From Luteibacter aegosomatissinici (GTDB taxonomy: Bacteria; Pseudomonadota; Gammaproteobacteria; Xanthomonadales; Rhodanobacteraceae), in NCBI RefSeq assembly GCF_023078495.1, contig NZ_CP095742.1:992001-1056000 (forward strand): DNA of 64,000 bases, given 5' to 3'. Below are positions 21,422 through 22,688 of the stretch, piece by piece (position 1 is the first letter of the stretch; each line of letters starts with the position of its first letter). Under the pieces are notes generated by a model that was not told the DNA's origin, made no database searches, and saw nothing but the letters and a program-made list of their open reading frames with translations. The position numbers and the translations under genes were made by a program.

Positions 21422-21745
21422 GTCCGCGGCGCCCCTTTGGGGAAAATTTTTTTTGGCCGCCAGTCGACTTCCGTTCATCCCCGCAAACCACCCTCCGAGG
21501 TCGCTCGGCCGCATGCCGGGCAGCCGTGCAACGACACGGGGTTCGCGCATACGCGATTCACAAAACGGTTCACGAAATGCCTTTATTCAAGGCGTTTTTG
21601 TAAACACGCGAATCGTTGAAAATGATTCAGGGCGATGCGGAAAATCGATTGAGCGAGGTCGGCAAACCGCCCGCCGGTTATCTGCCGATGACCTTCGGGG
21701 GCGTGTGATCAACCCGCAAGGTCTTCAATCTAGAGCCAAAATTTA
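21422..21745. other. Non-coding leader region before the MetJ-fusion gene
   Basis: About 320 bases with no credible gene. It contains a weak hairpin, GCCTT-TATTC-AAGGC, followed by GTTTTTG (21577-21599), and is locally AT-richer than the surroundings. No match to tandem AGACGTCT met boxes was found by eye. Confidence 0.5.
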
Positions 21746-21774
21746 TTGACAGCGGATTTGTTCAGGAATAGCTT
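21746..21774 (+). promoter_or_regulatory. Sigma-70-type promoter of the MetJ-fusion gene
   Basis: Consensus TTGACA (21746-21751), a 17-base spacer and TAGCTT (21769-21774) place transcription near 21781, about 20 bases before the ATG. The -35 and spacing are ideal; the -10 is weak. Confidence 0.6.
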
Positions 21775-21801
21775 TTGCGTCAATTGACGGGGAACCCGGA
21801 A

Positions 21802-22464
21802 ATGGAAACAGATAATTTCATCCGTCCGTATGTGGAGCATGGTTCAAAAGCAGGGTCGGTACGCAAGATCACAGTATCGATTCCGCTGCACATCCTCCGC
21901 CTGCTTTCTGATGAACGCACCCGCCGACAGGTCAACAATTTAAGGCACGCGACGAACAGCGATTTGCTGGTTGAAGCGTTCCTACATGCTTTTACTGGGC
22001 AACCACTGCCAACTGATGAGGAGCTGAGACGAACCATGGCCACTGCCAAGAAAGCCACTGCCAAGAAGTCGGCCGCCAAAAAGGCGACCAAGAAGTCCAC
22101 CACCAAGCGCACGGCTGCCCGCAAGGCACCGGCGAAGAAGACTGCGGCCCGTAAGGCTGCGGTGAAGAAGACCGCCCGCAAGGCTGCGGTCAAGAAGACC
22201 GCCCGCAAGTCGGCGGTGAAGAAGGCTTCGACCCGTAAGGTCGCTGCCAAGAAGGCCGTCAAGAAGGCCGTCCGCAAGGCTGCGCCGAAGAAGGCTGCAG
22301 CGAAGAAGACCGTCCGTAAGGCCGCCGCGAAGAAGGTTGCCCGCAAGGCTGCCCCGCGCAAGGCTGCTGCTAAGAAGGTTGCCGCTGCCAAGGCCCCTCG
22401 TGCGACCAAGGCGGCCAAGGCCCCCAAGGCTCCGAAGGCCCCCAAGGCTCCGAAGGCTGCCTAA
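21802..22464 (+). CDS. MetJ-like ribbon-helix-helix repressor fused to a histone-H1-like Lys/Ala-rich tail
   Basis: A 220-residue chimera. Residues 1-78 match E. coli MetJ nearly throughout: PYVEHGSK, the DNA-contacting strand [25 protein letters not shown] and [13 protein letters not shown]. MetJ's own C-terminal segment is missing. From residue 79 the protein is an uninterrupted KKA/RKA-rich tail ([14 protein letters not shown], then many KKTARKAAV units), typical of bacterial H1-like proteins. The N-domain should bind SAM and repress methionine genes; the tail should bind DNA non-specifically. The ATG at 21802 follows GGGGAAC. An internal ATG at 22036, preceded by GAGGAG, could also yield a free 142-residue H1-like protein. 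Strong DNA-level repetition makes the tail length prone to change. Confidence 0.88.
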
Positions 22465-22505: not shown

Positions 22506-22533
22506 GCTCCCCGCGGTGCCCAGCGCGGGGAGC
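22506..22533 (+). terminator. Stem-loop after the MetJ-fusion gene
   Basis: GCTCCCCGCG (22506-22515) pairs perfectly with CGCGGGGAGC (22524-22533) across an 8-base loop. There is no U-run, so it may act with the second hairpin just downstream or stabilise the mRNA end. Confidence 0.6.
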
Positions 22534-22547
22534 CACTTCGAACATTG

Positions 22548-22570
22548 ACCCCGGCCTGGCCGGGGTTATT
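22548..22570 (+). terminator. Second stem-loop, likely terminator
   Basis: CCCCGGC-CTG-GCCGGGG followed by TTATTCATTT. The GC-rich stem and T-rich tail lie 84 bases past the stop codon. Confidence 0.65.
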
Positions 22571-22688
22571 CATTTCCGGCGAGGCCGTATCTTCCTGCCC
22601 CCGGAAAAGCTCCTAGGCCTCCGGACTGGATTCACGCATCCATTACGGTTACCTTTCAGGCCACGCGCTGCGTGGGACGGGGGGTCCC

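Follow-up and report, generated by a model that had tools for sequence, protein, structure and literature searches.

A MetJ repressor fused to a histone H1-like tail in Rhodanobacteraceae, with a conserved internal start codon suggestive of a nested gene

Architecture of the metJ-H1 gene

The window analyzed here is a 64,000-nucleotide stretch of the Luteibacter aegosomatissinici genome (contig NZ_CP095742.1, forward-strand positions 992,001 to 1,056,000). It carries at 21802-22464 a gene in which a MetJ core is joined to a lysine-rich, histone H1-like tail that opens with its own start codon. MetJ is the textbook S-adenosylmethionine (SAM)-dependent repressor. The locus contains the following features:

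21802-22464, forward strand: metJ-H1 fusion gene, 220 amino acids plus stop; frame closed in all 90 intact family loci described below
21802-22032, forward strand: MetJ core, residues 1-77; Pfam and NCBIfam MetJ models over cut-off, alignment to 1cma
21988-22029, forward strand: frozen stretch, MetJ codons 63-76, conserved at the nucleotide level
22018-22023, forward strand: GAGGAG, likely Shine-Dalgarno sequence of the putative nested gene, 12 nt 5' of the internal ATG
22036-22464, forward strand: nested H1-like reading frame, 142 amino acids plus stop, from the internal ATG
21746-21774, forward strand: fusion-gene promoter, TTGACA at 21746-21751, 17 nt, TAGCTT at 21769-21774; pattern kept family-wide
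22546-22568, forward strand: terminator-like hairpin 3' of the fusion gene; consensus scan only, weak

The core comprises the ribbon-helix-helix DNA-binding and SAM-binding part of MetJ. Pfam MetJ (PF01340) aligns with residues 5-88 of the window protein (E = 9.8e-37, 125.3 bits, cut-off 25), the NCBIfam MetJ equivalog (NF003622) scores 132.4 bits (cut-off 110), and the E. coli Met repressor 1cma is the top PDB match (E = 5.9e-32). The core stops near residue 77 and has no equivalent of the C-terminal region of E. coli MetJ that contains helix C. Helix C is dispensable for MetJ membership by curated scores, since five short relatives in another family (f12, L107-L111) also lack it; these are unfused proteins of 79-82 residues ending directly after DEEL. 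The available text of PMC2775130 places Glu39, Arg40, Arg42, Arg43, Asn53 and Glu59 (E. coli numbering) at the SAM contacts or in the SAM signal path, and all six are retained in the window protein. This metJ is the sole one found in the 4.99-Mb genome.

The tail, residues 79-220, consists of 142 amino acids including 52 alanines, 45 lysines and 11 arginines with no aspartate or glutamate, giving a net charge of +56 and a pI (isoelectric point) of 11.9 for the whole protein. An AlphaFold model of the fusion was unusable as a structure (mean predicted local distance difference test score 53, predicted template modeling score 0.17). Other KKA-rich proteins are encoded in the same genome (L261, L262 and L263): L261 holds a topoisomerase-I-like protein ending in a KKA tail, and two H1/AlgP-like frames make up the rest. 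The fusion gene would therefore not be the only source of such protein. The model matches and the tail composition bear out a preliminary description, drawn from the DNA letters, of a MetJ start followed by an H1-like tail at this locus; what it overlooked is that the tail opens with its own Met codon, as a complete H1-like frame behind a nucleotide-frozen stretch.

Tailed MetJ across Rhodanobacteraceae

We searched 398 Xanthomonadales genomes for MetJ and obtained matches in 145, of which 125 belong to the same family, Rhodanobacteraceae, and 20 to three others (f8, f9 and f12). No Rhodanobacteraceae genome appeared among the 20 non-matching genomes listed, 233 further genomes being without a match. 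From the 125 family loci, 92 were retrieved, and 90 of these are intact; of the two set aside, L023 is truncated by a contig end and the core of L089 is interrupted by a stop. The fused frame is closed in all 90, which span many genera and independent assemblies; tail length ranges from 41 to 310 residues (median 102.5), and lysine plus arginine make up 29-47% of the tail. A second reading, in named genomes, again showed the fusion. Tailed MetJ is universal in Rhodanobacteraceae as far as sampled.

MetJ matches fall in four of the 12 numbered families of the order and tails in one of those four: 19 of the 20 loci from the other three families were retrieved, and none carries a tail. A survey of Xanthomonadales homologues, as proposed in the preliminary description, thus recovers the tail throughout the sampled Rhodanobacteraceae and in none of the 19 loci retrieved beyond it, and the order named there was too broad a scope. 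Outside the order, 369 genomes drawn from the class yielded three MetJ matches in frames of 112-118 residues, too short for such a tail, and the MetJ of L248, titled as an Aeromonadales metagenome-assembled genome, is likewise tail-less.

The open-licence literature on MetJ, H1-like proteins, Xanthomonadales and Rhodanobacteraceae, in the portions available, gave no description of a MetJ-H1 fusion, in line with the earlier statement that no described example was known. A 199-genome survey places MetJ in six gamma-proteobacterial groups only, with none in 4 Xanthomonadales genomes (PMC4239095), and metJ is reported missing from X. campestris 8004 (PMC6230763), both according to the accessible parts of these papers. 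The two reports fit the present result because family f2 gave no listed MetJ match. We also considered whether a Xanthomonas MetJ might be hidden behind a "histone H1" annotation, four "Histone H1" genes being mentioned in the available text of PMC8578834, and dropped this idea, f2 being without a listed match.

A frozen stretch and an internal start codon

Within the MetJ core, mean synonymous entropy drops from 1.23 bits over codons 6-62 to 0.29 bits over codons 63-76 (p = 4.6e-7). Tail-less relatives give 1.38 bits for codons 63-76 vs 1.23 for the rest (14 loci) and 0.76 vs 0.73 (5 loci); family subsamples of equal size give 0.23 vs 1.07 (n = 14) and 0.18 vs 0.86 bits (n = 5). Several of the fixed codons are rare, with ACT, GGG, CCA and AGA each used at 0-3% in the neighboring gcvH-like gene. 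Over 142 unique loci, ACT65 and GAG74 are identical in all, GGG66 in 141 and AGA76 in 134, while GAT72 (101/142) and CTG75 (96/142) are less fixed. A 35-nt pattern from this stretch, allowing up to 3 mismatches, occurs exactly once in each of 75 family genomes out of 76, and 62 match it without any mismatch; only genome G236 is without it. A further 223 genomes of the order do not contain the pattern, and no second copy was found in the L. aegosomatissinici genome at the same threshold. Codons 63-76 are frozen at the nucleotide level, largely as rare codons, only in Rhodanobacteraceae.

Directly behind this stretch, the tail begins with ATG in 141 of 142 unique loci and GTG in one (ATG in 89 of the 90 retrieved intact loci). 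The residue preceding it is variable, being T, D, I, A or absent, as read across the junction in 76 of 80 named loci (L171, L243, L247 and L248 were left out). Position 1 of the NCBIfam H1-like model coincides with the internal start codon in three of six genomes searched (G000, the genome of the window, G090 and G031). Predicted pairing with the anti-Shine-Dalgarno sequence averages -10.4 kcal/mol at the internal start over the 90 loci, vs -6.2 kcal/mol at the metJ start. Compared with synonymous random sequences, this pairing is stronger in three of six loci (fraction 0.035-0.044), and mRNA structure at the internal start is significantly low in four of six (0.011-0.031). A conserved in-frame start codon, a Shine-Dalgarno sequence and constrained upstream synonymous sites are found together here, as they would be at an internal translation start.

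The single GTG locus, L080 of genome G236, has lost the frozen codons as well as the strong Shine-Dalgarno pairing (-5.1 kcal/mol) and the low structure, with a predicted structure of -21.1 kcal/mol at the internal start vs about -9 to -14 kcal/mol in the five other loci. Since G236 sits inside the family tree, on branches of weak support, the loss looks secondary. Because the tail forms a complete frame with its own start codon after a nucleotide-frozen stretch, a free H1-like product from the internal start is likely.

Met boxes and their target genes

Tandem met boxes (up to 2 mismatches) are present in 58 of 59 family genomes, totaling 221 forward-strand sites vs 32 for a reversed control pattern, and the enrichment extends to genera g7, g9 and g11. 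We examined 55 site loci, comprising five from the L. aegosomatissinici genome, the 30 best sites and 20 chosen others. A metX-type gene (NCBIfam homoserine O-succinyltransferase MetX) lies downstream of the boxes in 17 of them, and in all 17 a SAM-I aptamer follows 3' of the boxes on the same strand (e.g., L116 1349-1524), an arrangement shared by a metB locus (L120). Further targets include aspartokinase (two loci), cysJ (one), metB, and a cluster of three TonB-receptor sites; boxes also occur, judged by position, at metJ itself (L119, L121 and L123). Many remaining sites, intragenic or near unrelated genes, may reflect chance.

The metX-metB site of the L. aegosomatissinici genome, AGCCGTAT AGACGTCT AAACCTCC, adjoins by eye a TTGACA-17-TAACCT promoter, followed by the riboswitch. 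The metX control region, with met boxes and then a SAM-I riboswitch, would have a protein and an RNA both sensing SAM at a single operon. The conservation of met boxes, combined with the SAM-contact residues kept in the window protein, makes it very likely that the MetJ part is still an operator-specific, SAM-dependent repressor, as the preliminary description had held, and the repressor appears to be in use in the family.

Elsewhere in the same genome, three to four tandem met boxes precede a TonB-dependent receptor with a carboxypeptidase-regulatory domain (L115 1490-1525), possibly a methionine or cobalamin uptake gene.

Promoter and flanking regions

A TTGACA-17-TA[AG]NTT promoter lies within 85 nt of the fusion start in all 90 family loci and in 0/90 of each of two controls. 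In the window this promoter, at 21746-21774, was missed by the thresholds of the scan, which called a sigma-70 site at 21616-21645 that we find less convincing. Outside Luteibacter, a met box pair (up to 4 mismatches) is located upstream of metJ in 48 of 71 loci, mostly at -165 to -191, and in 0/90 controls. These boxes stand ~100 bp upstream of the conserved promoter, where their mode of action is puzzling.

A perfect 12-bp palindrome, CGTCAATTGACG, occupies 21778-21789 just 5' of the metJ start and is kept in 14 of 19 Luteibacter loci; as a candidate operator it is absent from the other genera inspected. A gcvH-like sequence is present upstream of the fusion gene in 71 of 89 loci. Terminator-like hairpins number two in the region vs 2.7 in shuffles, and an Rfam anti-hemB small RNA matches weakly at 22508-22573 over the terminator-like hairpin (29.9 bits, gathering threshold 49.5).

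Interpretation and alternatives

We favor a nested gene, with a probability of roughly 0.6, in which one coding stretch yields both a tailed SAM-dependent repressor and a free H1-like protein. The promoter at 21746-21774 would produce one mRNA for both products. The first, full-length MetJ-H1, would use SAM as co-repressor when binding to tandem met boxes, while its strongly positive and probably disordered tail would add non-specific DNA binding, by analogy with CarD, the nearest precedent. Through this tail the fusion might also condense met promoters or link methionine status to nucleoid structure, as the preliminary description suggested. The second would be a free 142-residue H1-like DNA-binding protein, initiated internally at the ATG at 22036; the frozen codons 63-76 would then have a second role, as the region where translation of the nested gene begins. 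Boxes found ahead of metJ in most other genera suggest SAM feedback on expression of the fusion; in Luteibacter such boxes are unrecognizable.

Several observations weigh against the nested-gene reading. On the repressor side, sites in the L. aegosomatissinici genome at up to 3 mismatches number six per strand, not above the control at ten per strand, and box pairs upstream of metJ are found in 0/19 Luteibacter loci at up to 4 mismatches. In 22 of 90 loci (including L085 and L097; core residues 38-43), E39L occurs together with a change of R42 to H, Y or E, which perhaps alters the effector site. On the translation side, Shine-Dalgarno strength is not above synonymous random sequences in L081, L018 and L080 (0.30-0.43), low structure is not significant in L097 or L080, and the spacing of 12 nt between Shine-Dalgarno sequence and ATG in most loci is longer than usual. 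The tail itself falls under the cut-offs of both H1-like models, with 23.8 bits vs 40 (PF07382) and 25.5 vs 80 (NF038053), and is here classed as H1-like by sequence while being kept out of H1-like family membership. Finally, the nucleotide constraint is stricter than a ribosome-binding site requires and extends further 5' than one would need, making a promoter or another element conceivable.

A more elaborate version, which we regard as tentative and on balance doubtful, is a SAM-autoregulated nested gene whose frozen element sets, and perhaps regulates, how much tailed repressor is made relative to free H1-like protein, such that methyl-donor status would adjust the supply of a DNA-compacting protein.

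Among the alternatives, the one that survives best, although we consider it somewhat unlikely, interprets the frozen stretch as another kind of element, such as an operator, an RNA that is structured or regulatory, or a promoter within the gene that drives the H1-like part. An almost letter-exact freeze over ~40 nt (0 mismatches to the 35-nt pattern in 62 of the 75 matching genomes) and an imperfect inverted repeat, TGGGCA-N5-TGCCAA, noted by eye in the stretch, agree with such an element, but no sigma-70-like site was called there, Rfam returned no match, and a consensus fold of three loci, weak because one was out of register, gave a sole predicted stem without compensatory change. The hairpin stem carries CTA instead of CTG in some loci with no compensating change, and the fact that L080 has lost both the frozen stretch and the ATG argues for the start codon. 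Readings of the stretch as sigma-54, extracytoplasmic function sigma factor or hammerhead-like sites were unsupported on inspection by eye.

It is unlikely, and a little more so, that only the full-length fusion is made, with the internal Met left over from the event that joined metJ to an H1-like gene, and with a tail that raises DNA affinity or bridges operators. The fused frame kept in every intact locus suits this explanation, as do the lysine-rich tails on other proteins of the same genome, such as the topoisomerase-I-like open reading frame in L261, and the similar tail that strengthens an N-terminal module in Myxococcus CarD (PMC4374960, available text). A relic would not, however, keep its ATG in 141 of 142 loci while the neighboring residues and the whole tail change, and the frozen synonymous codons would be left unexplained.

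Departure from methionine control, leaving the fusion mainly a nucleoid protein with MetJ as its dimerization module, is improbable. The altered SAM-contact residues in 22/90 loci, the loss of upstream boxes in Luteibacter and the additional control of metX by a SAM-I riboswitch all point toward it, but the family as a whole shows strong enrichment of met boxes (g7, g9 and g11 included), and these mark met genes. Frameshift or mis-assembly, errors of which the preliminary description had warned, or a chance open frame, is practically out of the question as the origin of the fusion: GC-rich KKA repeats do hold long antisense frames open as well, but 90 closed frames of 90, from many genera and independent assemblies, rule it out.

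The distribution described here extends the range of MetJ to another family, where, as far as sampled, it is universal and bears a histone-like tail. Should the nested product exist, a single piece of coding sequence would belong to a specific repressor and at the same time act as the start region for a chromatin-like protein; such a gene would offer a simple test case for the effect of non-specific tails on operator search, cooperativity and spreading.

Comparison with known systems

E. coli MetJ (1cma/1cmc; PF01340) resembles the present protein in its core fold as judged by sequence, in tandem AGACGTCT-like boxes, in the SAM-contact residues and in its met targets. Two features differ: here an H1-like tail with its own Met codon replaces the C-terminal part, and the same metX boxes are followed by a SAM-I riboswitch. 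Xanthomonas, of the same order, shares with this family a SAM-I riboswitch on the met operon; there control combines SamR/MetR with SAM-I, and the accessible parts of the surveys report no MetJ, either among the Xanthomonadales genomes covered or in X. campestris 8004 (PMC4239095, PMC6230763).

The tail finds its counterparts in bacterial H1-like proteins (Chlamydia Hc2, the NCBIfam family hist_H1_lk_Burk and Pseudomonas AlgP), with which it shares KKA-type composition and an alignment starting from the model's first Met. Unlike these proteins, it remains below curated cut-offs and is fused behind a metabolite-sensing repressor. The closest parallel for the whole is Myxococcus CarD, another transcription regulator from bacteria whose C-terminus is a disordered, basic tail resembling chromatin proteins. 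The available text of PMC4374960 describes an N-terminal regulatory domain followed by an unfolded HMGA-like DNA-binding tail, and its reference list includes work on equivalence with H1-like domains. The two differ in the N-terminal module: that of CarD (CarDNt) contacts RNA polymerase and has no specific DNA binding, while MetJ binds operator DNA specifically by itself.
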